NCBI RefSeq assembly: GCF_019599265.1 | Contig: NZ_JAHZTC010000002.1 | Span: 186,001-250,000 of the forward strand | DNA: 64,000 nt | Direction of reading: 5' to 3' | Source: Pontibacter sp. HSC-14F20 | GTDB taxonomy: Bacteria > Bacteroidota > Bacteroidia > Cytophagales > Hymenobacteraceae | Shown: one piece after another, positions 12,008 through 58,917 of the stretch | How the letters are laid out: each line of letters begins with the position of its first letter | Numbering within the stretch: position 1 is the first letter of the stretch | Made by a program: the position numbers and the translations under genes | The notes under the pieces: model-generated | Told to the model about the DNA's origin: nothing | Seen by the model: only the letters and a program-made list of their open reading frames with translations | The model's database searches: none

Positions 12008-14308
12008 TTAAGATCGAGCTTGTTTTGCTGGTGCTTCTCCTTCAACCAGTGGTGTTACGTCCTCGTCCTCTTCCAAAGACCAGCCTGTTTTGAGGCCGAT
12101 GATAAACCAGGCCAGGGCCAGTACACCACCCGCAAAGATCGTGTCACCGATCACACGCAGCCAGCGCAGGATGTTCATGGTGTCGGTCTGCATGAACTCC
12201 ATGGAGCGGGCATACCACAGGCCGTACTCTACACTCGCCCAGGTCTGCATCAGACCGATTGGCAACACGCTGATCAACACCATCAAAATCAGACCGATGT
12301 TAATGGACCAGAAAGCGAAGCTGATCACACCGTCTTTCCAGCGGCGGCGGGCAGACAGGCCTTTGAGTACGAAGAGCATCAAACCGATACCCAGCATACC
12401 GTATACCCCGAACAGGGCGGTGTGGGCGTGCACTGGAGTCGTGTTCAGGCCTTGCATGTAGTAGAGCGCAATCGGCGGGTTGATCACGAAACCGAACACA
12501 CCGGCGCCTATCAGGTTCCAGAAAGCCACGGCCACAAAAGAGTAGATCGGCCATTTGTAAGCTTTGATCCAAAGCGTGAGTTTACTGATCTGCAGGTTAT
12601 GGTAAGCCTCAAAACCAATCAGCACCAGTGGCACTACTTCCAACGCACTAAAGGTCGCACCCAAGGCCATTACCGCAGTCGGTGTACCGCTAAAGTATAA
12701 GTGGTGGAAAGTACCGATAATACCGCCAAACAGGAAGATGATGGTCGAGAACAGTACCGTAGCCGTAGCCATTTTGGTGTCTAGCAGGCCCATGCGTACG
12801 AACAGGAAGGCGATTACCACGGTAGCGAACACTTCGAAGAAGCCCTCTACCCACAGGTGCACGACCCACCAGCGCCAGTACTCGGCAATGGCCAGATTAG
12901 TGTGTTGCCCCCACATCAGGCCAGCGGCGTAGAAAATAGCAATGGCCGCTGATGAGATCAGGAACATACCCAGCAGGTGGCGTCCTTCTACGTCGTTGCG
13001 GAAGGCAGGCAGGATGGCGCGTACCATCAGGGCCAGCCACAGGAACAAGCCCACCAGCAGGAAGATCTGCCAGAAGCGACCTAAATCCACATACTCATAG
13101 CCTTGGTGACCGAACCAGAAGTTCTCAGTATAGCCTAGTTTCTGCATGATGCCGTACCACTGACCAGCCAATGAACCCGCCACAATGATAAGCAGGCAGA
13201 CGAACAGGAAGTTTACACCCAGCTTCTGGAACTTTGGCTCATGACCCGACACGGCAGGAGCTATGTACAGACCAGTAGCCAGCCAGGAAGTCGCGATCCA
13301 GAAGATGGCCAGCTGTACGTGCCAGGTACGGGTGATGGAGTAGGGGAGATATTCCGCCAGCGGGAAGCCGTAAAGCGCCTGCCCTTCCACACCATAGTGC
13401 GCCGAAACAACCCCGAGCGTCACTTGCACCAGAATTAAAGCGGTCACAATCCAGAAGTACTTCAGCGTAGCCTTCATGGAAGGGGTTGCGGTTAGTCCCA
13501 GCAAGGGGTCCTGCTTCGGCAGTTTGGAGTGGTCGATCTCTTCTTCTTTGTTAGAAGCATAGTAGTAAGCCAGCATCCCTACCCCCGCGATCAGGATGAT
13601 CACCGAAAAACCCGTCCAGATAATGAGGTCGGAGCTGGGTTCATTGGCTACCAGTTTCTCTGCAGGCCAGTTATTGGTATAGGTAATTTTTTTGCCCGGA
13701 CGTTCCGTCACGCAGGCCCAGGAAGTCCAGAAGAAGAAGGTGTTTAGCTTCTCCATGCGCACCGGGTCCTCCACGGTGTTGTCCTTCATGGCATAGGCGT
13801 CGCGGTGTTTGGCCAGCGCCGGATCGTTCATGAACAAACCAGTATAGTGCATGCCCACCTCTGCGATTGCTTCCGCTCTCAGGTCCGAGATGGTCAGTAT
13901 ACCTGTCTCCGGGTCGTAGGTGTTGGCTCGGATCTGCTTCTGCAGACGGGCCTCGAGCATGGCTTTTGTCTCTTCGTCCAGGTCGTCATAGAGCACACCT
14001 TTTTCCTGCTGCGCCCAGTAATCCAGGAAGTACATGGCCTCTTTGTGCAGCCAGTCGGCGCTCCAGTCTGGTGCTATGTAGGCCCCGTGGCCCCAGATTG
14101 ATCCTAATTGCTGGCCGCCCGTGGACTGCCATACGTTCTGCCCGTCTTTGATGTCATCTCCGGTGAAAAGCACTTTACCGGATGTGGTGACTACCTTGTC
14201 AGGTATAGGCGGCGCCTCTCTGTATATCTCGATACCGTAGTATCCGAGAACGGCGAAGGAGCCGACAATCACGGCAATGAACCCCAGCCATAAGTTTCTG
14301 TATTTCAT
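12008..14308 (-). CDS. norZ: Quinol-dependent nitric oxide reductase (qNOR)
   Basis: 766 residues, the expected length for single-subunit qNOR. It reduces 2 NO to N2O with electrons from quinol, in the inner membrane. One N-terminal helix (residues 8-26) anchors a periplasmic domain to about residue 220 that resembles a heme-free NorC; the NorB-like catalytic part follows with about 12 helices. Active-site motifs are present: W-W-V-V-H-L-W-V-E-G (FeB His and Glu), G-T-F-H-H-L-Y (His pair) and T-P-V-H-A-H (heme ligands). Its promoter can be placed at 14526-14533, 33 bases from a Crp/Fnr-like palindrome. Monocistronic, own terminator. The organism also has a second NOR-like enzyme at 32552-34355. 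Confidence 0.95.
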   Translation of the reverse strand: MKYRNLWLGFIAVIVGSFAVLGYYGIEIYREAPPIPDKVVTTSGKVLFTGDDIKDGQNVWQSTGGQQLGSIWGHGAYIAPDWSADWLHKEAMYFLDYWAQQEKGVLYDDLDEETKAMLEARLQKQIRANTYDPETGILTISDLRAEAIAEVGMHYTGLFMNDPALAKHRDAYAMKDNTVEDPVRMEKLNTFFFWTSWACVTERPGKKITYTNNWPAEKLVANEPSSDLIIWTGFSVIILIAGVGMLAYYYASNKEEEIDHSKLPKQDPLLGLTATPSMKATLKYFWIVTALILVQVTLGVVSAHYGVEGQALYGFPLAEYLPYSITRTWHVQLAIFWIATSWLATGLYIAPAVSGHEPKFQKLGVNFLFVCLLIIVAGSLAGQWYGIMQKLGYTENFWFGHQGYEYVDLGRFWQIFLLVGLFLWLALMVRAILPAFRNDVEGRHLLGMFLISSAAIAIFYAAGLMWGQHTNLAIAEYWRWWVVHLWVEGFFEVFATVVIAFLFVRMGLLDTKMATATVLFSTIIFLFGGIIGTFHHLYFSGTPTAVMALGATFSALEVVPLVLIGFEAYHNLQISKLTLWIKAYKWPIYSFVAVAFWNLIGAGVFGFVINPPIALYYMQGLNTTPVHAHTALFGVYGMLGIGLMLFVLKGLSARRRWKDGVISFAFWSINIGLILMVLISVLPIGLMQTWASVEYGLWYARSMEFMQTDTMNILRWLRVIGDTIFAGGVLALAWFIIGLKTGWSLEEDEDVTPLVEGEAPAKQARS

Positions 14309-14525: not shown

Positions 14526-14570
14526 CAAAGGTCTTACCGGGTAGCAAGTAGAAAAATGACATAGGTCATT
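14526..14570 (-). promoter_or_regulatory. norZ promoter with Crp/Fnr-like box
   Basis: The palindrome AATGAC-ATAG-GTCATT (14555-14570) has a centre exactly 33 bases from the minus-strand element GACCTTTG (14526-14533, a near TAnnTTTG -7 box). This places the box at about -41.5, the standard class II position. The same 33-base distance with a GAnnTTTG element occurs at hemA. The leader to the norZ ATG would be about 210 bases. Apart from this site and the cupin promoter, 14309-14700 holds no supported gene. Confidence 0.65.
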
Positions 14571-15165: not shown

Positions 15166-15232
15166 GATGACGAAGGTCACTATTAAAAGAGATAAAGGTC
15201 TTTTATTGAAGAACACCCAGAGAATACCTTTG
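15166..15232 (+). promoter_or_regulatory. Promoter of the first nos cluster with Crp/Fnr-like box
   Basis: GATGAC-GAAG-GTCAC (core TGAC 15168-15171, GTCA 15176-15179) is centred exactly 55 bases upstream of TACCTTTG (15225-15232), a perfect TAnnTTTG element. This repeats the geometry of the cupin promoter. A leader of about 145 bases precedes the cytochrome gene. The second nos cluster has no such site. Confidence 0.75.
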
Positions 15233-15382: not shown

Positions 15383-15865
15383 ATGAAATCTATCAAAACC
15401 GCTGCTTTTATTTTCCTGGCTGCTCTGGTATTCTATAGCTGCTCTTCTGACAACACCACCACTACTGAAACTAAATCGGAGTCTGGCCTGGCCCATCAGG
15501 CACCTCCCGCTGCTGTAGAAGATGACGGAAAAGGTATAGGACCCATCTCGTCAGTAGAAGTTGGAGCTGAAATAGACGAAGCACTGGCTGCTGAAGGTAA
15601 ATCCATTTTCGAAGGCAAATGCTCCGCCTGCCACCAGTTGTCTGACCAGAAAATTGTAGGACCTGGCCTGCAGGGCGTGACAGAGAAACGCAAGCCGGAA
15701 TGGATCATGAACATGGTGATCAACCCTGAAGAAATGACCAAGAAAGATCCGACCGCCAAAAAGCTGCTGGCAGAGCACTTAACTCAGATGACCAACCAGA
15801 ACATCAACGAGGCCGATGCCAGAGCTCTACTGGAATTCTTACGTCAGAACGACAAAAATTCTTAA
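15383..15865 (+). CDS. Lipoprotein monoheme cytochrome c of nos cluster 1
   Basis: 160 residues. A lipoprotein signal peptide ends at V-F-Y-S-C (Cys20), followed by a Thr/Ser-rich linker. The cytochrome domain has one heme site, C-S-A-C-H, and a downstream Met-rich region (N-P-E-E-M) for the axial ligand. As a lipid-anchored periplasmic carrier encoded just before nosZ, it most likely delivers electrons to nitrous oxide reductase. First gene after the Crp/Fnr-type promoter. Its 3' half is almost identical to its cluster 2 partner. Confidence 0.9.
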   Translation: MKSIKTAAFIFLAALVFYSCSSDNTTTTETKSESGLAHQAPPAAVEDDGKGIGPISSVEVGAEIDEALAAEGKSIFEGKCSACHQLSDQKIVGPGLQGVTEKRKPEWIMNMVINPEEMTKKDPTAKKLLAEHLTQMTNQNINEADARALLEFLRQNDKNS

Positions 15866-15896
15866 TCAAAAAAAAACAGCAAAAACTATAATCATC

Positions 15897-17915
15897 ATGA
15901 AATCATTATTCTCAACCATCAAAAAAGCGGCTCCTGCCGCGGCCTTTACGCTGGCACTGGCCGGCGGCGCGGCCCTGCAGGGTTGCAGCAGCGGACCTGG
16001 CGAAGGTAGTGCCACAGCTGCTGGTGTTGCCTCAGACGCTGCGCAGGCAGTGTATGTAGCACCGGGCAAGCATGACGAGTACTACTCTTTCCTGTCTGGC
16101 GGTTTCAACGGACAGATGTCTGTGTATGGACTTCCTTCCGGCCGACTGCTGAAGATCATCCCGGTGTTCACGCAGCACGGTGAGAACGGCTACGGCTACA
16201 ACGAAGAGTCGAAAGCCATGCTCAACACTTCACATGGTTTTATCCCTTGGGATGACCTGCACCACCCCAAACTGTCCCGTACAAACGGTATGACAGACGG
16301 TCGCTGGCTGTTTGCCAACGGTAACAACACCCCGCGTGTAGCCCGTGTCGACCTGTCTACTTTCGAGACTGTAGAGATCATGGAGATTCCAAACTCTGCC
16401 GGTAACCACTGCTCGCCATACCCAACTGACAACAACGAGTACGTGATTGCAGGTACACGCTTCTCTGTGCCACTCGACATGAAAGGCGGTACAGCTGACG
16501 TGAGCATGGACGAGTACAAGGACAAGTTCCGCGGCTCTATCTCCTTTATTAAAGTTGACCAGGAGAAAGGCGACATGGAGCTGGACTTCCAGATTCTGGT
16601 ACCTGGTTTTGACTACGACTTGGCAAACGGTGGCAAAGGCCCGTCTTCTGACTGGGTGTTCTTCACCACTTATAACACAGAGCGTGCCGGTACCCTGAAG
16701 GAACTGGGTGCATCGCAGAACGACCGCGACTACCTGGCTGCTGTGAACTGGAAACTGGCTGCCAAGTATGCCGCAGAAGGCAAGGCGAAGGAAATGCCAG
16801 CTTACTACTATCACAACAAAATGGACAAGGATACACACATTGCCAAGTCTACTATCAAGAAGACGGTTCGCTACCTGCTCCCGGAAGATTGCCCGGGCAT
16901 GATGTACCTGATTCCGGCACCTAAGTCACCACACGGCATCGACGTGGACCCAAGCGGCGAGCACATGGTAGTAAGCGGAAAACTGGCTGCCACCATCCCG
17001 GTGTTCTCTTTCTCTAAAATGCAAAAGGCGATCGAAGACAAGGCCTTTGACGGTGAGATCAACGGTATCCCAGTGTTCAAATACGAGTCTGTGCTGAAAG
17101 CAGAAGTGCCGGAGCCAGGTCTTGGACCATTGCACACCGAGTTTGACGGAAAAGGCAACGCCTATACCTCTATGTTCGTGTCTTCTGAAGTTGTAAAATG
17201 GAAACTGAGCGACTTCACTGTAGTAGACAGAATGCCGGTTTACTACTCAGTTGGTCACTTGATGATCCCTGGTGGTGACACCCACACACCGGACGGCAAA
17301 TACCTGGTAGCCATGAACAAGATCACCAAAGACCGCTACCTGCCAACTGGTCCTGAACTGGCACACTCTGCCCAGTTGATCGATATCAGCGGCGAGAAAA
17401 TGCGCATGCTCCTGGACTTCCCGACCGTAGCTGAACCGCACTACGCACAGGCCATTAAAGCGGAGAAAGTAGCGCCTAACAGTGTGAAATTCTACGACCT
17501 GGCCAAGAACAAGCACCCACATGCGGTGAAGAAAGAGGCTGACGCCAGCGTGACCCGCGAAGGGAATGTTGTAAGAGTGAAAATGACGGCCATCCGTAGC
17601 CACATGACCCCGGATAACATCGAAGGCGTGCAGGTAGGCGACACCGTACTCTTCCACGTGACCAACCTCGAGCAGGACTGGGACGTACCGCACGGATTCG
17701 CGGTGATGGGCGCCAACACAGCCGAAACCCTGATCATGCCGGGCGCGACACAAACGCTGCGCTGGGTACCGAAGAAAGCCGGTGTGTTCCCATTCTACTG
17801 CACCGACTTCTGTTCTGCACTCCACCAGGAAATGCAAGGCTACATCAGAGTATCTCCTAAAGGCTCTCCTGTACCAATTTCCTTCTCAACAGGCAAAAAG
17901 AAGCCTGCCGCTTAA
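15897..17915 (+). CDS. nosZ: Nitrous oxide reductase, copy 1 (clade II type)
   Basis: 672 residues from ATG 15897; an upstream in-frame ATG would overlap the cytochrome gene and add a non-signal tail. It reduces N2O to N2 in the periplasm. The leader is Sec-type with a lipobox-like L-Q-G-C and no twin arginine, as expected for clade II (atypical) NosZ. The seven-bladed propeller with the CuZ site includes D-D-L-H-H-P and conserved His residues. The C-terminal cupredoxin carries an intact CuA motif, C-T-D-F-C-S-A-L-H-Q-E-M. A terminator follows directly, so the accessory genes are likely expressed below nosZ. Confidence 0.96.
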   Translation: MKSLFSTIKKAAPAAAFTLALAGGAALQGCSSGPGEGSATAAGVASDAAQAVYVAPGKHDEYYSFLSGGFNGQMSVYGLPSGRLLKIIPVFTQHGENGYGYNEESKAMLNTSHGFIPWDDLHHPKLSRTNGMTDGRWLFANGNNTPRVARVDLSTFETVEIMEIPNSAGNHCSPYPTDNNEYVIAGTRFSVPLDMKGGTADVSMDEYKDKFRGSISFIKVDQEKGDMELDFQILVPGFDYDLANGGKGPSSDWVFFTTYNTERAGTLKELGASQNDRDYLAAVNWKLAAKYAAEGKAKEMPAYYYHNKMDKDTHIAKSTIKKTVRYLLPEDCPGMMYLIPAPKSPHGIDVDPSGEHMVVSGKLAATIPVFSFSKMQKAIEDKAFDGEINGIPVFKYESVLKAEVPEPGLGPLHTEFDGKGNAYTSMFVSSEVVKWKLSDFTVVDRMPVYYSVGHLMIPGGDTHTPDGKYLVAMNKITKDRYLPTGPELAHSAQLIDISGEKMRMLLDFPTVAEPHYAQAIKAEKVAPNSVKFYDLAKNKHPHAVKKEADASVTREGNVVRVKMTAIRSHMTPDNIEGVQVGDTVLFHVTNLEQDWDVPHGFAVMGANTAETLIMPGATQTLRWVPKKAGVFPFYCTDFCSALHQEMQGYIRVSPKGSPVPISFSTGKKKPAA

Positions 17916-24679: not shown

Positions 24680-24697
24680 ATCAGCTGATACAACTGG

Positions 24698-24736
24698 ACA
24701 GCGGAGTTTGTTAAAACCAGGCTTCGCTGTTCTTTT
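24698..24736 (+). terminator. Terminator inside nos cluster 2, after nosZ
   Basis: ACAGCGGAG (24698-24706) pairs with CTTCGCTGT (24722-24730) with one G-U pair, followed by TCTTTTT. The position matches the hairpin in cluster 1 though the sequence differs. Confidence 0.8.
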
Positions 24737-24761
24737 TATACCTTCAAACTAATCAGAAAGG

Positions 24762-25343: not shown

Positions 25344-25359
25344 TCCAACAATCTTTGAC

Positions 25360-34506: not shown

Positions 34507-34549
34507 TGACTTAAGTCATTTTATAATGTGGTAGGTATGGCTAGACTTG
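34507..34549 (+). promoter_or_regulatory. Promoter of the thioredoxin-like gene with Crp/Fnr-like box
   Basis: TGAC-TTAA-GTCA (34507-34518, in an extended GTGAC...GTCATT) is centred exactly 33 bases upstream of TAGACTTG (34542-34549, one mismatch to TAnnTTTG), giving a class II position. Together with 34438-34449 it makes a two-box divergent control region. Confidence 0.65.
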
Positions 34550-34573: not shown

Positions 34574-35215
34574 ATGAACACCCCAGATATACTTACTCCC
34601 GAACTGATCAACCCGCTGACTTATCAGAGTTTTAAAAAACTGGTGGATACCCTCGTGGCAGAAAACCAGACGACAGGCCCTGAGCAGACCGAAGAACGCA
34701 TTGCTTATACCAAACTCAACCAGCAGCGCATGAAGCGGGTGGAGAAGCAATTTAAGATCGATCCTGAACTGCTGGCGGCCCTGCAACAGCCGCGTTCGGA
34801 GTGGCATTGGGTGGTGCTGGTGGAGTCGTGGTGCGGGGATGGCGCGCAGCAAATACCGGCATTTGCAGCCATTGCAGAGGCGGTTCCTACCATCGAGCTG
34901 ACGATTATCCTACGTGATGAAAATCCGGCCTGGATGGATACCTGCCTCACTAATGGCAGCCGCGCTATACCTAAGCTGATCTGCTTGGATGCCGAAACCA
35001 ACGAGCGCCTCTTTACCTGGGGACCAAGGCCGCTGGCCATACTCGAGCAGGTGCTGCGGTTTAAGGAAAAAAATCAGAATGCGACGAAAGAGGAAATAGG
35101 TACGCTGGTGCATACCCTGTATGCCAAAGACCGCAGCCAGTCGCTGCAGCAGGACCTGCTGCGATTGGTGCAGATGGCTATACCTGCAAAAGGGGAGGAG
35201 CAGGTGCTTTCTTGA
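34574..35215 (+). CDS. Thioredoxin-fold family protein with a single cysteine
   Basis: 213 residues, no signal peptide. Residues about 78-180 form a thioredoxin-like fold, with E-S-W-C-G-D-G in the active-site position: only the first cysteine of the usual CxxC is present. A cis-proline-like block (A-I-P-K-L) follows. Single-Cys members are found in Bacillota and Bacteroidota, with unknown role. It is divergent from norC and preceded by a Crp/Fnr-like box, so it may belong to the NO response. Confidence 0.82.
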   Translation: MNTPDILTPELINPLTYQSFKKLVDTLVAENQTTGPEQTEERIAYTKLNQQRMKRVEKQFKIDPELLAALQQPRSEWHWVVLVESWCGDGAQQIPAFAAIAEAVPTIELTIILRDENPAWMDTCLTNGSRAIPKLICLDAETNERLFTWGPRPLAILEQVLRFKEKNQNATKEEIGTLVHTLYAKDRSQSLQQDLLRLVQMAIPAKGEEQVLS

Positions 35216-45630: not shown

Positions 45631-45708
45631 TTGATAAATATATCAGAAAAATATTTAAGAAAAAAAGACCTTTTTATCTTTTATTTTGTTCTGCCTGTAT
45701 ATACCTTT
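45631..45708 (+). promoter_or_regulatory. Putative promoter of the RIC operon
   Basis: TACCTTTA (45701-45708) is one base from the TAnnTTTG element and lies about 45 bases before the RIC start. Upstream, TTGATAAATATATCAG (45631-45646) resembles an FNR site, but the half-sites are six rather than four bases apart and centred about 66 bases from the -7 element. A regulated promoter is plausible; the regulator is unclear. Confidence 0.4.
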
Positions 45709-45753
45709 ACATCGGCAATCATTTATAACAGAACAATTCAACAAAAAAACACC

Positions 45754-46710
45754 ATGGAAACCATAGACAAATTAGACGTAACTGTACTGGAACCACGCAT
45801 GAAACACCCGACCATTTTCCAGTGGTTTGATAAACTGAATGGCGGCGAAGCTTTTGTGATTCACAACGACCACGACCCGAAGCCACTGTACTACCAGTTG
45901 CTAGGTGAGCGCGGTAATATCTTTAAGTGGGAGTACCTGCTGCAGGGACCGGAAATATGGGAAGTGAAAATCTCGAAACTGACTCCTGAAGAAGGAGAGA
46001 CAGTAGGCGAACTCGTAGCCAAAGACTACCGCAAGGCGCAGGTGTTCAAGAAATATGGCATCGACTTCTGCTGCAACGGCAAAAAATCACTGAAGCAGGC
46101 TTGCGAAGAAAAAGGTATCAGCCAGGAGCAACTGGAGTACGAACTCAACGCCATGCCAGAGAAAACTGCCGAGACCTCGCGCGGTAACGAATACGACAAG
46201 TGGGAGCTGGGCTTCCTGGGCGACTACATCGTAAACATGCACCATAGCTATGTGCGCGAGGCTATACCTGCGCTGTACGAATATACTACCAAAGTAGCCC
46301 GTGTACACGGTACCCGTCACCCCGAGGTGATCGAAGTAGCCAAGCACTTTGTGAACGTAGCCAACGAGCTGGAATCTCACATGCCGAAAGAAGAGCGCGT
46401 GTTGTTCCCGTTCATCAAGCAGATGGAAGAAGCGAAGAAGAATGGCGTGAAGCTGGACCGTCCGGCCTTCGGCAGCATCCAGAACCCGATCAACATGATG
46501 GAGATGGAGCACGAATCAGCCGGTGGCGAAATGGAAGCTATCCGCAAGTTGACAGATGACTTTACCCTGCCAGCCGACGCCTGCGCCACGTATAGAGTAA
46601 TGTTCTCAAAACTAGAGGAATTCGAGAACGACCTGCACCGCCACATCCACCTGGAGAACAACGTGCTGTTCCCGAAAGCGCTGGAACTGGAGAAAGAAGT
46701 GTTGAAGTAA
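45754..46710 (+). CDS. ric: Iron-sulfur cluster repair di-iron protein (RIC/ScdA/YtfE type) with N-terminal DUF2249
   Basis: 318 residues from ATG 45754; the frame is open upstream but the preceding residues are hydrophobic leader DNA. Residues 1-80 form a DUF2249 domain, about 85-140 the ScdA_N (DUF542) domain with the motif D-F-C-C-N-G (Cys106/107), and about 150-310 a hemerythrin domain with H-H-S-Y, H-x-E-V, E-L-E-S-H and H-R-H-I-H-L-E. RIC proteins repair iron-sulfur clusters damaged by NO or peroxide. The added DUF2249 is less usual. First gene of a nitrosative stress cluster. Confidence 0.9.
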   Translation: METIDKLDVTVLEPRMKHPTIFQWFDKLNGGEAFVIHNDHDPKPLYYQLLGERGNIFKWEYLLQGPEIWEVKISKLTPEEGETVGELVAKDYRKAQVFKKYGIDFCCNGKKSLKQACEEKGISQEQLEYELNAMPEKTAETSRGNEYDKWELGFLGDYIVNMHHSYVREAIPALYEYTTKVARVHGTRHPEVIEVAKHFVNVANELESHMPKEERVLFPFIKQMEEAKKNGVKLDRPAFGSIQNPINMMEMEHESAGGEMEAIRKLTDDFTLPADACATYRVMFSKLEEFENDLHRHIHLENNVLFPKALELEKEVLK

Positions 46711-46785
46711 CAAGGATATCAGGGCAGGCTGTGGAAGGAACCGTGGTCTGCCCCATTACCCCTACGGGCAAAGCCCACCACAACT

Positions 46786-47286
46786 ATGACAACTGCAACC
46801 AAACCACTGAAACGAGACAAAAGCCTGGTGCCGCTCTCCCGCGAACACCACTTCGGACTGCTGTTCTGCTGGAAACTGAAGCAAGGTATGGCCAACGGCA
46901 CTTCTTTTGAGCTGATGCGCCAGTACACCGATTATTTCTGGAAAAACATTCTGAAAGCACACTGCCAGGAGGAGGAAGTGATCGTGAAAAGACTTTTGCC
47001 CAAAGATGATGTGAACTCTATCAGAATACATGAAGAGCATCAGCTAATCGAAGCCATCATCGGCCTGATCAATAAGCAAAAGAATCTGAATACCTCTCTT
47101 ATTGTAACGCTGCAACAGGACCTGACCGACCACATCCGTTGGGAAGAACGCGAGCTGTTCCCCTACCTGCAGACGGTGGCCGATCCGGAGGAACTGGCTG
47201 ATGTGGGCCGGTTGCTGGAGCATGACCTGCAGGAGCCGTTGGACGAGTTTTTGCCTGCTTTCTGGGAAAATAAAAAGGTAAGTTAA
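46786..47286 (+). CDS. Hemerythrin-domain protein
   Basis: 166 residues, a single four-helix hemerythrin-like domain. Candidate di-iron ligands are S-R-E-H-H near residue 21, H-C-Q-E-E near 62, H-E-E-H near 84 and H-I-R-W-E-E-R-E near 110. It probably binds a di-iron centre that handles O2 or NO. 75 bases after RIC and 2 bases before the DUF1858/DUF2249 gene. Confidence 0.88.
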   Translation: MTTATKPLKRDKSLVPLSREHHFGLLFCWKLKQGMANGTSFELMRQYTDYFWKNILKAHCQEEEVIVKRLLPKDDVNSIRIHEEHQLIEAIIGLINKQKNLNTSLIVTLQQDLTDHIRWEERELFPYLQTVADPEELADVGRLLEHDLQEPLDEFLPAFWENKKVS

Positions 47287-47288
47287 TC

Positions 47289-48107
47289 ATGGAACTGTCT
47301 GCTACCACCCGAATCTCAACTATACTGCGGGAGAACCCTGCGGCTATAGAGGCCATCGTGTCGATCAACAAGCACTTTGAGAAGCTGCGGAACCCCGTGC
47401 TGCGCAAGGTGCTGGCTTCGCGGGTGACCATCGCCGATGCTGCCCGCATTGGCAAGTGCCGGGTGGAGGATTTCTATGAAAAGCTGGAACCGCTGGGCTT
47501 CAGCATCGCATCAAAACCAACTCACAGCAAAAGGGCTATACCTATGGAAAACGATGTTTTGGAAAGACCCGCTTTTATGGCGAATCTGAAGCAGGAAGAT
47601 ACCCTTGTGCTGGACGTTCGCGACACCATCGCCAAAGGCGACGACCCTTTTCTGCAGATCATGGACGCGGTAAACAAGCTAAATCCCGAACAGGTGCTTT
47701 GCATAGTCAATACCTTCGAGCCAATTCCGCTGATCGCTATCATCCGCCCCAAAGGCTTCGAGTACTATACCGAAACGCTGGGGCCTCACCTGGTGAAGAC
47801 ATACTTTAAGAAACAAAGCGCAGGGGAAGAGGTAAAAGTAAATCCAACCGTTATCGAGGAAAACTTCGATGAACTGTTGGCCAGGTATAGCGGCAAGCTG
47901 CAGCCAATGGACGTGCGCCAGATGGAGATGCCGCAACCGATGGTGTCTATACTTGGTGCCCTGGAAACGCTGCCGAAGGACAAGGCGCTGTATGTGCATC
48001 ACCGCAAAGTTCCGCAGTTTCTGCTGCCGCAATTAACGGAGCGAGGATTTAAGGTAAGTATAAAAGAAGTTGGGCCGAACGAGGTGAATTTGCTGATATA
48101 CAGGTAG
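47289..48107 (+). CDS. DUF1858 plus double DUF2249 protein
   Basis: 272 residues. An N-terminal DUF1858-like helical domain (about 1-70, R-K-V-L-A-S-R-V-T-I) is followed by two DUF2249 domains (about 95-170 and 200-270; L-V-L-D-V-R-D and P-M-V-S-I-L-G-A-L-E). DUF2249 is a SirA/TusA-like fold common in denitrifier clusters, biochemical role unknown. With the copy in RIC this makes three DUF2249 units in adjacent genes. 2-base gap to the hemerythrin gene implies cotranscription. Confidence 0.82.
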   Translation: MELSATTRISTILRENPAAIEAIVSINKHFEKLRNPVLRKVLASRVTIADAARIGKCRVEDFYEKLEPLGFSIASKPTHSKRAIPMENDVLERPAFMANLKQEDTLVLDVRDTIAKGDDPFLQIMDAVNKLNPEQVLCIVNTFEPIPLIAIIRPKGFEYYTETLGPHLVKTYFKKQSAGEEVKVNPTVIEENFDELLARYSGKLQPMDVRQMEMPQPMVSILGALETLPKDKALYVHHRKVPQFLLPQLTERGFKVSIKEVGPNEVNLLIYR

Positions 48108-48137: not shown

Positions 48138-48153
48138 AATGACTTTTGTCATT
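48138..48153 (+). promoter_or_regulatory. Crp/Fnr-like box upstream of the NnrS-like gene
   Basis: AATGAC-TTTT-GTCATT is a perfect inverted repeat, identical in its arms to the norZ box, 117 bases before the next start codon. A weak -7 candidate, GATATTGT (48175-48182), lies 33 bases away, but it is poor, so only the box itself is solid. Confidence 0.65.
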
Positions 48154-48269: not shown

Positions 48270-49586
48270 ATGAGCGCCGCAACTGTTTCTAATTCACCCT
48301 CCAAATGGCTTGTGCTGCCGCACTACGCTTTCGCGGCGGTGTCGTTTGTGGTGCTGTGCCTGCTGCTGGTCTTTTCAACCGATGCTTTTGGCGGGCATTA
48401 TTTCCACCCGAAACTGCTTACCCTCACGCACGTGGCGGCGCTGGGCTGGGCAACCATGATCATCTTCGGATCGGTTTATCAGCTGCTGCCAGTGGTGCTG
48501 GAGGTACGGCTATACAGTGAAAAGCTAGGAACCTGGGCCTTTGCTTTACTATCAACCGGTACTATCCTGCTCACCATTTCCTTTTGGAATTTCTGGGTAG
48601 GCACCATCATGCACATAGCGGCTTGTCTGCTGTTCATATCGTTCCTGCTCTTTGCCTGTAACGTTGTGCAAACTGCCCGGCAGGTGAAGAAATGGGGGAT
48701 AGAGGCCGATTTTATGGTCACTTCGGTGGTATGGCTCGTAGCCACAGGGCTGGTGGGCGTGCTGATGGTTTTCAACTTTCAATATCCTTTTCTGCCACAG
48801 GACCATGTGCATTATCTGCAACTGCATGCGCACATAGGTATGGCGGGCTGGTTCCTGCTCCTGATCGTAGGCGTGGGCTCTAAACTGATCCCTATGTTCC
48901 TGCTGGCCCACCCTGAAGATACCCGCAGCCTGAACTGGAGCTATTACCTAATTAATGGCGGGCTGGTACTTTTTGCGTTGGATCACCTGTTTCTACACAC
49001 CGGTTTCTATGCGCTCTATGCGCTTATGGTTGTAGCAGGTATAGCCTGCTTCCTTTACTTCCTCTACCAGGCTAAATGCCTTGGAAAACGGCCCGACCTG
49101 GATTTAGGTATGAAGCAGACATTTGTGGCCCTGACGCTGCTGATCCTGCCCATCGTGCTCGTGTTTGTAGTGACGCTGCAGCTTGGACTGCCGCAACGCC
49201 TGCTGTCGGCGCTATACCTGGTGTATGGGCTTTCCATCTTCTTCGGCTTCGTGTCGGCGCTGATACTCGGGCAGACCTTTAAAACGCTTCCCTTTATCGT
49301 CTGGATGCACAGTTACGAAGATTATGTGGGCCGTTTCAAAACACCTATGCCGAAGGACATGTATAGCGTAACATTGCTGCGCTGGCAGAATATCGCCTAT
49401 ATTGTCGGGCTGGTGGGTTTACTGGCTGGTGTGTTGCTGGCCGAGCAGACTATTATTTTGGTGGGGGCGGTGCTCTTGAGTATTGCGGCGGTGCTGTATG
49501 CCGGCAACGTGTTTAAAGTGCTGTTGCACAAGGTGAAAGATTTAAAACCATTCGGCTATGAAAAGGCAGCAAAAGGAGCAAATTAA
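48270..49586 (+). CDS. NnrS-like / heme-copper-like 12-helix membrane protein
   Basis: 438 residues, about 12 hydrophobic helices. Conserved-looking His sites include H-Y-F-H-P, T-L-T-H-V-A-A-L-G-W and L-Q-L-H-A-H-I-G-M-A-G-W, the last resembling heme-ligand helices of heme-copper enzymes. NnrS is a heme- and copper-containing protein that protects against NO; assignment here is by likeness and neighbours, not proof. It follows the RIC/hemerythrin genes, and a perfect Crp/Fnr-like box precedes it. Confidence 0.75.
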   Translation: MSAATVSNSPSKWLVLPHYAFAAVSFVVLCLLLVFSTDAFGGHYFHPKLLTLTHVAALGWATMIIFGSVYQLLPVVLEVRLYSEKLGTWAFALLSTGTILLTISFWNFWVGTIMHIAACLLFISFLLFACNVVQTARQVKKWGIEADFMVTSVVWLVATGLVGVLMVFNFQYPFLPQDHVHYLQLHAHIGMAGWFLLLIVGVGSKLIPMFLLAHPEDTRSLNWSYYLINGGLVLFALDHLFLHTGFYALYALMVVAGIACFLYFLYQAKCLGKRPDLDLGMKQTFVALTLLILPIVLVFVVTLQLGLPQRLLSALYLVYGLSIFFGFVSALILGQTFKTLPFIVWMHSYEDYVGRFKTPMPKDMYSVTLLRWQNIAYIVGLVGLLAGVLLAEQTIILVGAVLLSIAAVLYAGNVFKVLLHKVKDLKPFGYEKAAKGAN

Positions 49587-53174: not shown

Positions 53175-54719
53175 TTGGAAGAGTACGAAAATTCATCTAA
53201 TCAGCTTTTAGACAATGCGTCTCGACTGAAAGCCATTATCGAAACAGCAATCGATGGCATCATCACCATCGACCGCAGGGGCGTTGTAGAATCCGTTAAC
53301 CCGGCGGCGGCGCATATTTTTGGCTATCAGCCCGAAGAGATAATAGGTAATAATGTGAGCATGCTCATGCCGGAGCCAGACCATAGTCTGCACGACAAAT
53401 ACCTCGACAACTACCACCGCACCGGGGTAGGGCAAATCATCGGCAAAGGGCGCGAAGTACTGGGCAAAAAGAAAGACGGCGTTGTGTTTCCGTTTCTGCT
53501 CAGCATCAGCGAAGTGAACTTGCACGACAAGCAGATCTTTACCGGTATCATACACGACATCACGGAACTCAAAAAAACAGAGGCCGCGTTGCGCGAAAGC
53601 GAAAGCCGCATCAATTCCATCATCCAGACTGCTGTAGACGGTATCATTACTATCGACACACGCGGTGTGATTGAAATGATCAACCCATCGGCCTGCAGGC
53701 TGTTTGGCTATGGTGAGTCGGAGGTAATTGGCCGCAAGATCAACCTGCTCATGCCAGAGCCGGATAAGAGTCTGCATGACAACTACATGCACCACTACCA
53801 CGAGACGGGCGAGAAGCGCATTATAGGTATAGGCCGCGAGGTAACCGGGCTCAAAAAAGACGGTACCATCTTCCCGCTATACCTGAGCATCAGCGAAGTA
53901 TACCTGGCCGACCGCAAGGTATACACCGGCTTCATACACGACATCACCCGACAGAAAGTAACCGAAGAGCGCCTGCGCCGCTATGCCGCCGAACTGGAGC
54001 GAAGCAACCGCGAGTTGCAGGATTTTGCCTACGTTTCGTCGCACGATTTGCAGGAGCCTCTGCGCAAGATTCAGGCCTTCGGTGACCGACTCAAAATGAA
54101 GGAGTACGAGAACCTGAGCGATCAGGGCAAGGACTATGTGGATCGCATGCTCAACGCAGCCAGCCGGATGCAGAACCTGATCAACGACTTGCTCACTTTT
54201 TCAAGAGTTACTTCCAAGTCCAAGCCTTTTGTGAAAACAGACCTGAACCAGATTGCGCGTGACGTGATCTCGGATCTGGAAATTGCCATAGAACGCTCAC
54301 ATGCCAAAGTGGAGGTAGAGCAGCTGCCGGTCATTCAGGCAGAACCTACGCAGTTGCGCCAGCTGCTGCAGAACCTGATCAGCAATGCCATCAAGTTCCG
54401 CAAAGATGAAGTGGATCCTGTGGTGAAGGTATACGCCAAAGAAGTGCAGGTAAAAGCGCATATGACCTCCACGCCGGGCGACGAACTGGTGGAGCTGCAT
54501 GTAGAGGACAACGGCATTGGCTTTGAGGAGAAGTACCTGGACCGGATCTTCAATATCTTTCAACGACTGGAAGGGCAGAAGTATGAGGGCTCCGGTATAG
54601 GGCTGGCCATCTGCCGTAAAATTGCGATCCGGCACGGAGGAGACATCACAGCCAAAAGTAAGCCGGGCGAGGGTACGCATTTTATTGTTACTTTAGCAAA
54701 AACTCACCTGAAGGAATAA
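53175..54719 (+). CDS. Sensor histidine kinase with two FixL-like heme PAS domains
   Basis: 514 residues, starting at TTG 53175 since no nearby ATG gives a full first PAS domain. PAS1 (about 15-130) and PAS2 (about 143-258) are both FixL-like: M-P-E-P-D-x-S-L-H-D-x-Y with the proximal heme His at 73 and 201, and the R-E after G-x-G giving the distal Arg at 93 and 221. Then HisKA with H290 (S-S-H-D-L-Q-E-P) and an HATPase domain (D-N-G-I-G-F; G-S-G-I-G-L-A-I). No membrane helix, so it is a cytoplasmic O2 (or NO) sensor. Next to three response-regulator genes, the last a receiver-Crp fusion. Confidence 0.88.
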   Translation: MEEYENSSNQLLDNASRLKAIIETAIDGIITIDRRGVVESVNPAAAHIFGYQPEEIIGNNVSMLMPEPDHSLHDKYLDNYHRTGVGQIIGKGREVLGKKKDGVVFPFLLSISEVNLHDKQIFTGIIHDITELKKTEAALRESESRINSIIQTAVDGIITIDTRGVIEMINPSACRLFGYGESEVIGRKINLLMPEPDKSLHDNYMHHYHETGEKRIIGIGREVTGLKKDGTIFPLYLSISEVYLADRKVYTGFIHDITRQKVTEERLRRYAAELERSNRELQDFAYVSSHDLQEPLRKIQAFGDRLKMKEYENLSDQGKDYVDRMLNAASRMQNLINDLLTFSRVTSKSKPFVKTDLNQIARDVISDLEIAIERSHAKVEVEQLPVIQAEPTQLRQLLQNLISNAIKFRKDEVDPVVKVYAKEVQVKAHMTSTPGDELVELHVEDNGIGFEEKYLDRIFNIFQRLEGQKYEGSGIGLAICRKIAIRHGGDITAKSKPGEGTHFIVTLAKTHLKE

Positions 54720-54725
54720 ACGCCA

Positions 54726-55172
54726 ATGAAATCGAATAGACCTATTGTGATACTGATAGCCGACGACGACGCCGAAGATCGTATGCTCATTAAAGAGGCG
54801 CTGGACGAAAACCGACTGAGCAATGCGATACAGTTTGTAGAAAACGGCGAAGAGCTGATGGACTACCTGCACAACCGCGGCAGGTTCACCGATAAGGAAA
54901 AATACCAGACACCGGGCCTTATTCTGCTTGATCTGAACATGCCGAAAAAAGACGGTCGCGAGGCGCTGAAGGAAATAAAAGCCGACGAACACCTGCGCGT
55001 GCTGCCCGTGGTGGTACTCACTACTTCCAAGGCCGAGGAGGATATTCTGCGTACCTACGATCTGGGCGTGAGCTCTTTCATCACCAAGCCGGTCACTTTC
55101 AGCTCGCTCGTGGACGTGATGCGCACCCTGAGCAAGTATTGGTTTGAAATTGTAGAGCTGCCCAAACCGTAG
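54726..55172 (+). CDS. Single-domain response regulator (Rcp1-like)
   Basis: 148 residues, only a receiver domain. Acidic pocket A-D-D-D, phospho-acceptor Asp69 (L-L-D-L-N-M-P), Thr in L-T-T-S, Lys in I-T-K-P. The Y-L-H-N-R-G-R insert is typical of Rcp1-like receivers coupled to PAS/GAF kinases. Starts 6 bases after the heme PAS kinase. It may compete for phosphate or pass it to other proteins. Confidence 0.9.
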   Translation: MKSNRPIVILIADDDAEDRMLIKEALDENRLSNAIQFVENGEELMDYLHNRGRFTDKEKYQTPGLILLDLNMPKKDGREALKEIKADEHLRVLPVVVLTTSKAEEDILRTYDLGVSSFITKPVTFSSLVDVMRTLSKYWFEIVELPKP

Positions 55173-55262
55173 GTTTGAGTCGCGAGTTACGAGTCGCGAG
55201 TTTTTTAACTCAGAACTCGAGACTCAGAACTCAGAACTCTCAAACCCCCAAACTCCCAAACT
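55173..55262 (+). repeat. GAGTCGCGAGTT / ACTCAGAACTC repeat cluster
   Basis: Between two signalling genes lie two copies of GAGTCGCGAGTT, then GAGTTTTTTAACTC, then three copies of ACTCAGAACTC (55208-55218, 55222-55232, 55229-55239) and AACTCCCAAA-type words. The parts are partly complementary, so a hairpin can form. The same words recur at 49599-49623 and, more weakly, near 63523-63553. Confidence 0.65.
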
Positions 55263-55268
55263 CATAAT

Positions 55269-56501
55269 ATGCTTGACAGAATACGTGTTTTGCTGGTGGA
55301 TGATGATGAGGATGATTTCATCATTACGCGGGATATTATGGATGATATACCCGGGCGCAACTACGTGCTCGAGTGGGCGCCTTCCTTTAGCAAGGCAATC
55401 GATATTATCAGGGAGCAGCGGCACCATGTATACCTGGTCGATTTCAGGCTGGGTGCGCATGATGGACTGGAGCTGATCACAAAGGCCGTGAATGAAGGAA
55501 TAGCAGCACCCTTTATTCTGCTTACAGGGCAAAGCGACCGCGAAACCGACGAGAAAGCCATGCGGGCCGGCGCCCAGGATTACCTTGTAAAGGGCACTTT
55601 CAACCCTTACGATCTGGAGCGTTCGATCAGGTATAGTATTGAACACGCCAAGAGCCTGGCCGAAATTCAGAAGCTGAACACCGAGTTGGAACAGCGTGTT
55701 GAGGAGCGCACACAGGAACTGGCCGCAGCTATACAAAACCTGGAGAAGGCGAACCGGACGCTAAAAAAGGCACAGACTGAAATATACAAGGCACTGCAAA
55801 AGGAGAAGGAGCTGCACGAACTCAAGTCGCGCTTCGTGACCATTGCCTCGCACGAGTTCCGCACACCGCTCAGCACGGTTCTTTCCTCCGCATCGCTCAT
55901 TACAAAGTATAAAACTGCCGAAGACGATGAAAAACGCCTGAAGCACGTGGGGCGGATCAAGTCGGCGGTGCATAACCTGACCAATATCCTCAACGACTTC
56001 CTGTCGATCAGCAGGATGGAGGAGGGGAAGATCAACAACGTGCCAAGTACCTTTGATCTGCAGGGCTTCTCGGCAGAAGTGGTCGACGAAATGCAGGGCT
56101 TCCTGAAAGAGGGGCAGCGCATTGATTACCGGCACGAAGGTACGCAGCAGACGGTATACCTGGATAAGCAGCTCATGCGCAATGTCATGATCAACCTGCT
56201 CTCCAATGGCAGCAAATACTCAGGAGAGGATAGTACGATCTGGTTTACGACATCCATCCAGGAAGGGATTATTACCCTGGAAGTGCGCGACGAAGGCATC
56301 GGTATACCTGACGAAGACAAAACGCACTTGTTTACGCCTTTCTTCAGAGCGCAGAACGTCACCAACATACAGGGAACGGGTCTGGGGCTCAACATCGTTA
56401 AAAAATATGTAGAAATAATGGGTGGCGAGCTGCGCTATGAAAGCCAACTGGGCCACGGCACCACCTTCACCATCATGTTGCCATATACCGCACAGATATG
56501 A
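55269..56501 (+). CDS. Receiver-first hybrid histidine kinase
   Basis: 410 residues: receiver (1-120, Asp58 in Y-L-V-D-F), a long coiled coil (about 125-185, rich in Glu/Gln/Leu), HisKA with H195 (A-S-H-E-F-R-T-P) and HATPase (D-E-G-I-G-I; G-T-G-L-G-L-N-I). No membrane helix or sensor domain, so input must come by phosphotransfer to the receiver. Its stop overlaps the next gene (ATGA), indicating coupled translation with the receiver-Crp regulator, its likely target. Confidence 0.9.
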   Translation: MLDRIRVLLVDDDEDDFIITRDIMDDIPGRNYVLEWAPSFSKAIDIIREQRHHVYLVDFRLGAHDGLELITKAVNEGIAAPFILLTGQSDRETDEKAMRAGAQDYLVKGTFNPYDLERSIRYSIEHAKSLAEIQKLNTELEQRVEERTQELAAAIQNLEKANRTLKKAQTEIYKALQKEKELHELKSRFVTIASHEFRTPLSTVLSSASLITKYKTAEDDEKRLKHVGRIKSAVHNLTNILNDFLSISRMEEGKINNVPSTFDLQGFSAEVVDEMQGFLKEGQRIDYRHEGTQQTVYLDKQLMRNVMINLLSNGSKYSGEDSTIWFTTSIQEGIITLEVRDEGIGIPDEDKTHLFTPFFRAQNVTNIQGTGLGLNIVKKYVEIMGGELRYESQLGHGTTFTIMLPYTAQI

Positions 56502-57559
56502 AAAAGATATTACTGATTGAAGATAATCAGGAGATACGGGAGAACACAGCCGAGATCCTGTCGCTGGCCAACTACCAGGTACTCGAAGCTCCCAATGGCA
56601 AACTGGGTGTTGACCTGGCCAAAAAAGAACACCCGGACCTGATCATCTGCGATATCATGATGCCCCAGCTCGACGGTTATGGCGTGCTGCACATGCTCAG
56701 CAAATTCCCTGAAACGGCCAGTATTCCCTTTGTCTTTCTGACGGCCAAATCAGAGAAAGAAGACTTCCGCAAAGGCATGAACCTGGGAGCGGATGATTAC
56801 CTGACAAAACCCTTCGATGATGTGGAGTTGCTGGACGTGGTGGAGATGCGCCTGAAGAAAAATGAGATCTTGAAGGCTGAGTTTCAGCGTAACGTGCAGG
56901 GCCTCGACAATTTTATACAGGAAGCAAAAGGGTATGAAGAGCTCAACAAACTGATTTCTGAAAACCGCCGTGTGACGGTGTTCCGCAAAAAGCAGCATCT
57001 GTTCTCGGAAGGCAATTATCCAAGTAACCTGTACTTCCTGAACAAGGGCAAGATCAAGACCTACAAATCGAACGAGGAAGGCCGGGAGTACATCACCTGC
57101 CTCTACAAAGACGGTGATTTTATCGGCTACCTCGATTTGCTGGAAGAGAAAGCTTACCGCGAGTCGGCGATGGCGCTCGAGGATTCCGAGGTATACATTA
57201 TTCCGCGCGAGGATTTCTATACCTTGCTCTACCAGAACCGCGACGTAGCGGGCAAATTCATCAAGATCCTGTCAGACAACCTGGCCGATCGGGAAGAGCG
57301 TTTGCTGAAACTGGCCTACAACTCGGTGCGCAAGCGTGTAGCAGAGGCATTGCTGTTCGTAGAAAGGCAATACAAAGAAGACCCGAACTACAAGTCAGAA
57401 GTATCGATCACGCGCGAGGATCTGGCCAGTATTGTGGGCGCTTCCAAAGAGACGGTGATCCGTACCCTGGCTGATTTTAAAGACGAGCACCTGATCGACA
57501 CCCGCGGCAGCAAGATCACCATTCTGAATGCACAGAAACTGGAGCGGATGCGGAATTAA
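56498..57559 (+). CDS. Response regulator fused to a Crp/Fnr DNA-binding protein
   Basis: 353 residues: receiver (1-120, phospho-acceptor Asp52 in I-C-D-I-M-M-P), a linker helix (about 120-155), a cyclic-nucleotide-fold domain (about 156-265) and a Crp-type winged helix (about 270-345). The recognition helix S-K-E-T-V-I-R-T-L keeps Glu318 and Arg322, the residues that in Crp/Fnr proteins read the TGA half-site. The cyclic-nucleotide pocket lacks the R-S pair of Crp, so control is more likely by phosphorylation. It thus combines the roles of FixJ and FixK in one protein. Candidate activator of the TGAC-N4-GTCA promoters. Confidence 0.88.
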   Translation: MKKILLIEDNQEIRENTAEILSLANYQVLEAPNGKLGVDLAKKEHPDLIICDIMMPQLDGYGVLHMLSKFPETASIPFVFLTAKSEKEDFRKGMNLGADDYLTKPFDDVELLDVVEMRLKKNEILKAEFQRNVQGLDNFIQEAKGYEELNKLISENRRVTVFRKKQHLFSEGNYPSNLYFLNKGKIKTYKSNEEGREYITCLYKDGDFIGYLDLLEEKAYRESAMALEDSEVYIIPREDFYTLLYQNRDVAGKFIKILSDNLADREERLLKLAYNSVRKRVAEALLFVERQYKEDPNYKSEVSITREDLASIVGASKETVIRTLADFKDEHLIDTRGSKITILNAQKLERMRN

Positions 57560-57590
57560 GAGAAACATTGACATTTCTCCTGCCTGAAAG

Positions 57591-57633
57591 TGACGAAAGT
57601 CATACTTTCCGAACCCAGGTTTTAAGAAATTTG
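57591..57633 (+). promoter_or_regulatory. hemA promoter with Crp/Fnr-like box
   Basis: TGAC-GAAA-GTCA (57591-57602) is centred exactly 33 bases upstream of GAAATTTG (57626-57633, TAnnTTTG with one mismatch), a class II arrangement. This repeats the norZ spacing and its GAnnTTTG element. It lies just after the receiver-Crp gene. Confidence 0.68.
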
Positions 57634-57654: not shown

Positions 57655-58917
57655 ATGCAAAACCAGTTTAAAGCCCTTACATTATCTTACAAGCAAGCAC
57701 CTATCGCCGTACGTGAAGCCGTATCGCTCAACGAAATCGGCTGTCGTAATCTGCTCGATAAGATACGCGAGTTTACCAATGCGCAGGATGTGATGGTGCT
57801 TTCTACCTGTAACCGTACGGAGGTCTACTACGCCGCTGCACAAGACCTTTCCCGCGAAATCATCAAACTGATCGCAATTGAGAAGGGCTTTATCGCAACA
57901 AAAGAGATTTCAACTTATTTCCAGCACATCACCGATCACCAGCAGGCGGTACAGCACTTATTTTATGTGTCGCTGGGGCTGGAGTCGCAGGTGGTGGGCG
58001 ATATGCAGATACTGAATCAGGTGAAAAAAGCCTACCAGTGGACAGCCGATGCTGATATGGCCGGTCCTTTTCTGCACAGGCTGATGCATACCATCTTCTA
58101 TACCAATAAGCAGGTATTCAACCAGACCGCCTTTTTTGATGGTGCTGCTTCGGTATCGTACGCTACGGTAGAGTTGGTAGAGGAGCTTACCAGAGGGATG
58201 GTTGATCCGCGTGTACTCATGATCGGGGTAGGGGAGATCGGCGCCAATGTGTGCGACAACTTCGGAAAGTCGAAGATCAGTAACGTGGCCATCGCCAACC
58301 GTACGCATCACAAAGCTTTGGAACTGGCGCAGAAAACCAATGCCCGTGCTATTTACTGGGAGAATGTTTGGGAAGAAATGGCGAATGCGGATGTGGTGAT
58401 CTCGTCTGTGCCAGGCGACTGCTTTTTTATAGGACAGACTGATGTGGCGAAGTTAGGTGAAAATGCTCCCCAGTTCTTTGTAGACCTTTCCATGCCGCGC
58501 AGCATCGATGCCGCGATCGAAGCCCTGCCAAACACCAGGGTATACAACGTAGACAATATTCGTAACCGAGCCACCGAGGCGCTGGCCATCCGCATAGCTG
58601 CCATTCCTCAGGTTAAGGAAATTATAACAGAAGCGCTGGCGGAGTTCAGCACCTGGACCCGCGAAATGGCCATGTCGCCGGCCCTGCAGCAGTTCAAAAA
58701 TCGTCTGGAGGAAATTCGTCAGCAGGAGTTAGCCCGCTATACCAAGAAACTGGGCGATGACCAAAAAGAGCTTGTGGAAGCCATCACCAAAAACATCCTC
58801 AACAAGATCGTAAAACTGCCTGCCCTGGAGCTGAAAGCAGCCTGCCAGCGTGGTGGGTCGGAGGCCCTGCTGGAAGGATTGAGCGCACTGTTTAACCTCG
58901 AAAAACAGGAAGCCTAG
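57655..58917 (+). CDS. hemA: Glutamyl-tRNA reductase
   Basis: 420 residues. Reduces glutamyl-tRNA to glutamate-1-semialdehyde, the first step of C5 heme synthesis. Catalytic Cys52 lies in S-T-C-N-R-T-E; H-L-F-Y-V-S-L-G-L-E-S and the NADPH-binding G-V-G-E-I-G-A are intact. Denitrification enzymes in this window need much heme, and the Crp/Fnr-like box upstream suggests joint control. Heme PAS sensor genes lie just upstream. Confidence 0.95.
   Translation: MQNQFKALTLSYKQAPIAVREAVSLNEIGCRNLLDKIREFTNAQDVMVLSTCNRTEVYYAAAQDLSREIIKLIAIEKGFIATKEISTYFQHITDHQQAVQHLFYVSLGLESQVVGDMQILNQVKKAYQWTADADMAGPFLHRLMHTIFYTNKQVFNQTAFFDGAASVSYATVELVEELTRGMVDPRVLMIGVGEIGANVCDNFGKSKISNVAIANRTHHKALELAQKTNARAIYWENVWEEMANADVVISSVPGDCFFIGQTDVAKLGENAPQFFVDLSMPRSIDAAIEALPNTRVYNVDNIRNRATEALAIRIAAIPQVKEIITEALAEFSTWTREMAMSPALQQFKNRLEEIRQQELARYTKKLGDDQKELVEAITKNILNKIVKLPALELKAACQRGGSEALLEGLSALFNLEKQEA

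Follow-up and report, generated by a model that had tools for sequence, protein, structure and literature searches.

The DNA analyzed here is a stretch of 64,000 nucleotides from Pontibacter sp. HSC-14F20 (the window), and near its right end lies a group of four genes, the last of which encodes a receiver fused to a Crp/Fnr-type regulator (REC-Crp), the protein with which this report is mainly concerned. All four open reading frames (ORFs) proposed in an earlier reading of the window from its sequence alone (the sequence-only reading) are confirmed by the ORF list of the window, and their domain content by domain search; they encode a FixL-like sensor kinase (HK1), a lone receiver, a receiver-kinase (REC-HK) and REC-Crp, and are followed by hemA1, the second glutamyl-tRNA reductase gene of the genus (Table 1). 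The fusion proposed for the fourth gene is borne out by the presence of Response_reg, cNMP_binding and HTH_Crp_2 domains within one ORF. Intergenic repeats of the gagtt/actcagaactc type lie between the lone receiver and REC-HK genes (55173–55268).

Table 1. Genes, domains, boxes and promoter elements in the window, numbered from its first nucleotide.
Feature	Position	Strand	Remarks
HK1	53175..54719	+	FixL-like sensor kinase, PAS-PAS-HisKA-HATPase_c (domain search); TTG start; 514 amino acids
PAS1 of HK1	53217..53579	+	H73, R93
PAS2 of HK1	53601..53963	+	H201, R221
Stand-alone receiver	54726..55172	+	Response_reg (domain search)
REC-HK	55269..56501	+	Response_reg-HisKA-HATPase_c; 4-bp overlap with the REC-Crp gene
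REC-Crp	56498..57559	+	Response_reg-cNMP_binding-HTH_Crp_2; receiver fused to a Crp/Fnr-type cNMP fold and helix-turn-helix (HTH)
Second box at hemA1	57569..57580	+	TGACATTTCTCC; 2 mismatches; 22 bp upstream of the main box
Main hemA1 box	57591..57602	.	TGACGAAAGTCA; exact TGACN4GTCA
TTTG promoter element of hemA1	57630..57633	+	exactly 33 bp from the box center
hemA1	57655..58917	+	second glutamyl-tRNA reductase of the genus; TIGR01035 320.9 bits (cut-off 209.55)
norB	12008..14308	-	norB-type NO reductase; candidate target
Box between norB and the divergent gene at 14701	14557..14568	.	TTTG at 33 (norB) and at 55 (gene at 14701)
Box upstream of the first nos cluster	15168..15179	.	TTTG at 55
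nosZ, first copy	15816..17915	+	candidate target
Box before ORF 34574-35215	34507..34518	.	exact box, 55 bp before the ORF; no exact TTTG at 33
Box before ORF 48270-49586	48140..48151	.	exact box; no exact TTTG at 33; ORF has a weak COX1-like match below cut-off

HK1 has two PAS domains ahead of its kinase core, and the residue pairs named in the sequence-only reading (His73/Arg93 and His201/Arg221) are found as stated; they align with the places that we take to be H200 and R220 in the BjFixL numbering. The best solved relatives of the PAS region in sequence searches are FixL domains (8js5, E 4.6e-40; BjFixL 1dp6, E 1.1e-34), and a fold search places dimeric FixL PAS domains at ranks 1–5 (query template modelling (TM) score 0.54–0.60), with target TM scores mostly about 0.9 and root-mean-square deviations of 1.5–1.8 against single BjFixL heme domains. 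The kinase core is matched better by another histidine kinase (8f71) than by FixL structures in the sequence search, and HK1 scores 323 bits with the NCBIfam FixL equivalog NF041777, short of its cut-off of 850, so that it is called FixL-like, judging from such matches, rather than a member of the FixL family. An alignment of 34 HK1 rows includes two duplicates (L202 is L163, and L203 is L159) and hence represents 32 genomes; H201 and R221 of PAS2, together with I216, are invariant in all 32, and the proximal His and distal Arg of PAS1 are at the FixL positions in 30, PAS1 being degenerate in G040 and missing in G035. The earlier description of a double heme PAS therefore stands in that both domains are of the FixL type, but an essential role for both is not supported; heme binding by these domains is predicted. 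The two AlphaFold models used in this work are of moderate confidence (predicted local distance difference test (pLDDT) 73.7 and 70.6, predicted TM score 0.39 and 0.41), and the arrangement of domains in them was left aside.

The receiver of REC-Crp has the acidic pocket, phospho-Asp, Thr/Ser and Lys of response regulators, with D9, D52 and K104 invariant and T82 conserved in at least 90% of 11 aligned sequences. The remainder of the protein belongs to the Crp/Fnr superfamily (PF00027, 73 bits; PF13545, 64 bits), and the fold of its model (pLDDT 73.7) matches CRP/FNR. This Crp half is 46% identical to the FNR of the source genome, and the recognition helices of the two are very similar (GASKETVIRTL in REC-Crp, GTAKETTIRLL in FNR). 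The FNR cluster cysteines are absent, the Crp half having none to three cysteines among 23 sequences and none in an invariant column among the 11 aligned; in 12 FNR rows used for comparison C8, C11 and C110 are invariant. When 42 Crp modules are placed in a tree, all 23 REC-Crp rows group together and the 12 FNR rows fall outside that group; the REC-Crp/FNR split is a single change in every one (100%) of 200 bootstrap trees, with a branch support of 84/70. The tree thus allows a single receiver-Crp fusion event. In the scheme proposed below, REC-Crp would descend from an oxygen-sensing FNR.

The organization of the locus differs among the Bacteroidota. Outside the genus and G040, 19 loci were compared, and in 18 of them REC-Crp is preceded by a gene for a PAS-kinase whose core resembles that of REC-HK (39–53% identity); the exception, L215, has no adjacent kinase and was left out of the 18 partner kinases, and no kinase adjoins the second REC-Crp of G023 (L210), other second copies being outside the count. 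The PAS domains of the partner kinases have a His at the FixL His position in all 18 and an Arg at the distal position in nine. Those of G050, Arcticibacter (L217) and Sphingobacterium (L223) have both residues and are 56–61% identical to PAS2 of HK1, so that each of these loci has, next to REC-Crp, a kinase that joins an HK1-like PAS to a core like that of REC-HK. G040, which belongs to a different family and has HK1, the lone receiver, REC-HK and REC-Crp together, agrees with the window's genus in having a receiver where the other loci have the PAS, plus HK1 and the lone receiver; in G036 no REC-HK is labelled between HK1 and REC-Crp, and a longer ORF lies there on the opposite strand. The pathway is thus not condensed, as had been suggested, since a receiver-kinase gene overlaps REC-Crp here where a single PAS-kinase is found in the other families; compared with those families the window locus appears to be an expanded relay, with a receiver in place of the PAS and a further kinase besides. 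Most simply, the sensor would have moved to a kinase of its own, with HK1 presumably feeding REC-HK. The cbb3 oxidase genes are present in four of six order loci around REC-Crp (G045, G046, G050 and G054) and in five of 13 named loci (L211, L216, L217, L220 and L223), and hemN in the REC-Crp loci of G046, G050, L217, L220 and L223. Genes identified by eye as UspA-like universal stress genes are often near REC-Crp or cbb3 genes (L199, L201, L202, L203, L208, L219, L220 and L222), and three of them (one in L219 and two in L220) are behind a box with TTTG at 33.

The sequence-only reading also reported Crp/Fnr-like boxes at nitric oxide (NO) and nitrous oxide reduction genes and at hemA, and these are present at 14557, 15168 and 57591. 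Exact TGACN4GTCA occurs eight times in the window compared to 0.7 (standard deviation 0.8, maximum 4) over 200 shuffles, and TGAC ranks first among all 256 half-sites, followed by TGAT with seven; boxes with one mismatch are as frequent in the window as by chance (22 against 22.2) and were rejected as uninformative. The exact boxes at 35823 and 35961 are inside ORF 35822–37111 and are possibly due to chance. Across the whole genome RTGACN4GTCAY shows no excess (17 sites, and 20 for the reversed control), and the argument therefore rests on position and conservation. A TTGACN4GTCAA consensus was rejected for the source genome, having one palindromic site and 2 strand hits as against 16 in the reversed-pattern control. 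There are two tandem nos clusters in the window (15383–28546), with nosZ genes at 15816–17915 and 22646–24679 (TIGR04246, 924 and 911 bits) and nosD genes at 19056 and 25811, and exact TGACN4GTCA is found upstream of the first cluster only. Hemerythrin/DUF2249/DUF542 and DUF1858/DUF2249 genes (45631–48107) are located just before the box at 48140.

The position of the box at hemA1 is conserved throughout the genus. TGAYN4RTCA precedes hemA1 in all 34 hemA1-bearing genomes (27 + 7), and when all offsets of 10–60 are read from the gene-proximal box, TTTG starts exactly 33 bp from the box center in 34/34 promoters, with no other offset occurring more than six times. The same is true of ccoN, where TTTG is at 33 in all 16 promoters (the source genome and 15 genus relatives that lack FNR) and at no other offset. 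The 33 offset recurs at norB, ccoG and ccoI of the source genome, and the nos and 14701-gene boxes are at 55, which is 33 + 22; in 28/34 hemA1 and 16/16 ccoN promoters the main box is preceded, at a distance of 22 bp, by a second box with no more than 2 mismatches. The composite of box and TTTG occurs twice in the window (norB and hemA1), where 0.05 occurrences are expected. On the assumption that TTTG is the −7 element, the box center falls near −42, the position of a class II activator. The 33 offset is also in excess around REC-Crp in other families, with 6 of 40 box readings in seven order loci, against a mean of 0.26 for the other offsets, and 12 of 118 (0.77 at other offsets) in 13 Bacteroidota loci, whereas control loci give 1/66 (0.46) and 0/48 (0.25); boxes at this offset in other families precede hemN of G046, ccoI of G050 and the PAS-kinase of G051, and some are near unrelated genes. 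The housekeeping hemA2, about 51% identical to hemA1, has the box in none of 13 promoters; the number of hemA genes per genome ranges from one to three in the genus, and the housekeeping second hemA of the source genome (G000:C14:48824–50080) is without the box. In G015 and G021, hemA1, HK1, full-length REC-Crp and ccoN are jointly missing at the thresholds used. REC-Crp is present without hemA1 in G035 and without a ccoN match in G007, a genome that is 87% complete. What G021 retains of REC-Crp is only part of its Crp half, which contains a stop codon (G021:C1:3367099–3367518; L110), a decaying regulator.

The source genome also encodes a canonical FNR (C13:50226–50927), which adjoins ccoI and ccoNO and has a C-x2-C motif and further cysteines. 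FNR is absent (at E 1e-25) from 18 of 36 genus relatives, 16 of which keep REC-Crp, and in these 16 the box is kept at ccoN in 15/15 with ccoN and at hemA1 in 15/15 with hemA1. In the order sample the FNR-less ccoN genomes (G040, G045, G046, G050 and G054) all have REC-Crp and the REC-Crp-less ccoN genomes (G039, G042, G044, G049, G053, G056 and G058) all have FNR; in G051 REC-Crp is accompanied by a single-domain protein that is 38% identical. In a class sample of 197 genomes, the source genome included, 98 have REC-Crp, 114 have ccoN and 74 have both. Counting FNR among the matches listed, which reach to about E 1e-64 and leave weaker FNR proteins outside, the 114 ccoN genomes comprise at most 50 with REC-Crp and no listed FNR, 34 with FNR only, 24 with both and at most six with neither, one of these last (G077) having an unlisted FNR match at 1.6e-63. 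The single-domain match of G158, with its start at model position 35, was left out of the FNR count, and G111 and G199 were counted as REC-Crp from partial matches. A Fisher test on the class sample gives p = 5.8e-8, ignoring the relatedness of the genomes. No more than 15 kb separates REC-Crp from ccoN in 27 of 74 genomes, representing 16 families, and FNR from ccoN in 21 of 58, again among the matches listed. FNR and REC-Crp thus share both the box and its position; what favors REC-Crp is that box and position persist in genomes lacking FNR, and in many Bacteroidota it seems to stand in for FNR under the control of phosphorylation.

The computed evidence, from domain content and conserved residues to synteny, co-occurrence and the conservation and spacing of the boxes, leads us to a scheme that we regard as probable when taken as a whole, a low-oxygen (or NO) phosphorelay that would end in activation by phospho-REC-Crp. 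HK1 would sense a diatomic gas by one or two FixL-type heme-PAS domains and pass the signal to the REC-HK receiver, to the lone receiver or to both; REC-HK would phosphorylate REC-Crp. Phospho-REC-Crp would then bind TGAYN4RTCA boxes centered about 42 bp before the predicted transcription start and, as a class II activator, switch on the cbb3 oxidase and hemA1 genes, with norB and nos shared with FNR. In many Bacteroidota REC-Crp, a relative of FNR with a receiver and without the cluster cysteines, would do the job of FNR alone. Heme binding, the identity of the gas, the route that the phosphoryl group takes, the polarity of the response, DNA binding and the descent of REC-Crp from an oxygen-sensing FNR are inferred.

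Several observations weigh against this scheme. The sequence-only reading had allowed that another Crp/Fnr protein might be responsible for binding, and in part this applies, given a canonical FNR beside the cbb3 genes with so similar a helix; it can account for every box in the source genome. Like boxes are upstream of ccoN in five of seven FNR-only order genomes, with TTTG at 33 in 2 of 10 box readings of FNR-only ccoN stretches (G051 included), and a box is within about 320 bp upstream of hemA in five of nine REC-Crp-less order genomes compared to three of eight hemA genes of REC-Crp-bearing ones. REC-Crp also occurs in 24 class-sample genomes without a ccoN match, and among REC-Crp-bearing order genomes the ccoN box is absent from G045 and G051 and is not at the 33 offset in G046, G050 and G054, so that the 33 rule at ccoN is shown for the genus only. 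An unlikely extreme is that FNR controls cbb3, norB, nos and hemA1 in the source genome and that the REC-Crp regulon is elsewhere; the invariant cysteines of FNR and its position beside ccoI and ccoN suit such a role, but the FNR-less genomes of the genus with the exact-spacing box at ccoN and hemA1 (15 each) all have REC-Crp. The best-supported REC-Crp targets are hemA1, where the box is conserved in the genus, and cbb3; given the FNR helix and the like boxes of FNR-only genomes, the norB and nos boxes are not assignable to REC-Crp alone, and the denitrification sites are shared with FNR. A third Crp-type protein of the source genome (G000:C11:294194), whose recognition helix is of the E-xxx-R type and whose own gene cluster is surrounded by GTGACN4GTCAC boxes, is a very improbable binder of the hemA1 and nor/nos boxes, its own being longer G..C palindromes clustered at genes that are sulfur-like by eye, and its helix different. 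Its gene (L060:11404–14841) has repeated GTGACN4GTCAC boxes beside metallo-beta-lactamase-fold and TauE-like genes (by eye), perhaps a sulfur regulon.

The upstream part of the relay can also be read differently. HK1 and the lone receiver might form a pair of their own that merely neighbors REC-HK and REC-Crp, with REC-HK answering another signal. This would fit the overlap of the REC-HK and REC-Crp genes, the lone receiver coming first after HK1, and the occurrence of REC-Crp with other kinases elsewhere. We consider it rather unlikely, since all four genes are together in G040, HK1 is missing with REC-Crp in G015 and G021, and the HK1-like PAS is joined to a REC-HK-like core in G050, L217 and L223. 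Somewhat less doubtful, although still a minority view, is that the PAS domains respond to NO, to a different ligand or to a redox cue rather than to oxygen via heme. Heme is not proved by sequence, H/R-type PAS domains need not bind it, and the His kept in all 18 partner PAS domains, divergent ones among them, even where the FixL Arg is lost, is perhaps partly structural; norB and nos are among the box genes. Against this reading are the FixL heme domains as best fold and sequence matches and the invariance of H201, I216 and R221. For the phosphorelay ending in REC-Crp, we incline somewhat to the further view that REC-Crp is a Bacteroidota-wide and probably once-evolved FNR substitute, which gave up direct oxygen sensing for control by phosphorylation via FixL-type or related PAS kinases, and that the genus split the kinase into a tandem-heme sensor and a receiver-kinase, assembling independently a circuit like FixL-FixJ-FixK as a post-translational relay.

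The FixL-FixJ-FixK system of the alphaproteobacteria is similar in its FixL-type PAS kinase, its Crp/Fnr-type regulator and its TGA-N6-TCA sites, and its targets include cbb3 oxidase, hemN and denitrification genes, which are neighbors or box genes here; the FnrN/FixK consensus is given as TTGANCNNGATCAANG in PMC4999443. It differs in that here the receiver and Crp module are one protein, with no intervening transcription step, that the window locus adds a receiver-kinase and a lone receiver, and that the phylum is different. The HTH of REC-Crp is of the Crp type (PF13545/PF00325) and not the LuxR type of FixJ, and unlike FixK it carries an N-terminal receiver. REC-Crp resembles FNR in its helix, boxes and kind of gene neighbors, and departs from it in lacking conserved cysteines and in having a receiver with intact phosphorylation residues. 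In Caulobacter, FNR targets have been displaced to FixK/FixLJ control, according to PMC2908626, which also gives FnrL sites such as TTGACgcagGTCAA and one before Rhodobacter hemA; there too a two-component-controlled Crp/Fnr protein replaces the direct oxygen sensor, but as a separate FixK gene under FixLJ, whereas the regulator here carries the receiver itself. Rhizobium leguminosarum has hFixL-FxkR-FixK and FnrN branches together (PMC7888657), much as a FixL-type kinase branch coexists with FNR in the source genome, although as a transcriptional cascade, and its abstract describes no receiver-Crp fusion. For the microoxia response of Bradyrhizobium, PMC6515984 names HemN1, HemN2, CcoG/FixG and FixI, and reports that the gene of HemA (ALA synthase there) was induced without a rise in the protein. 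The word 'receiver' is not found in the accessible part of PMC8510549, and listings of open-licence papers yielded no account of a REC-Crp regulator in Bacteroidota. The principle that FNR can be replaced by a two-component-controlled Crp/Fnr protein is thus already known in alphaproteobacteria. The novelty lies in a regulator that unites receiver and Crp module, is widely distributed and is complementary to FNR, in a promoter spacing that is exact within the genus, and in the expansion of the relay.

The control of high-affinity respiration and denitrification in aerobic Bacteroidota appears to be little described. With REC-Crp in about half of the sampled class genomes and an exact promoter rule in the genus, the question becomes testable through predicted target genes, mutants and a clear complementarity with FNR, and it bears on the reduction of nitrous oxide by these Bacteroidota.

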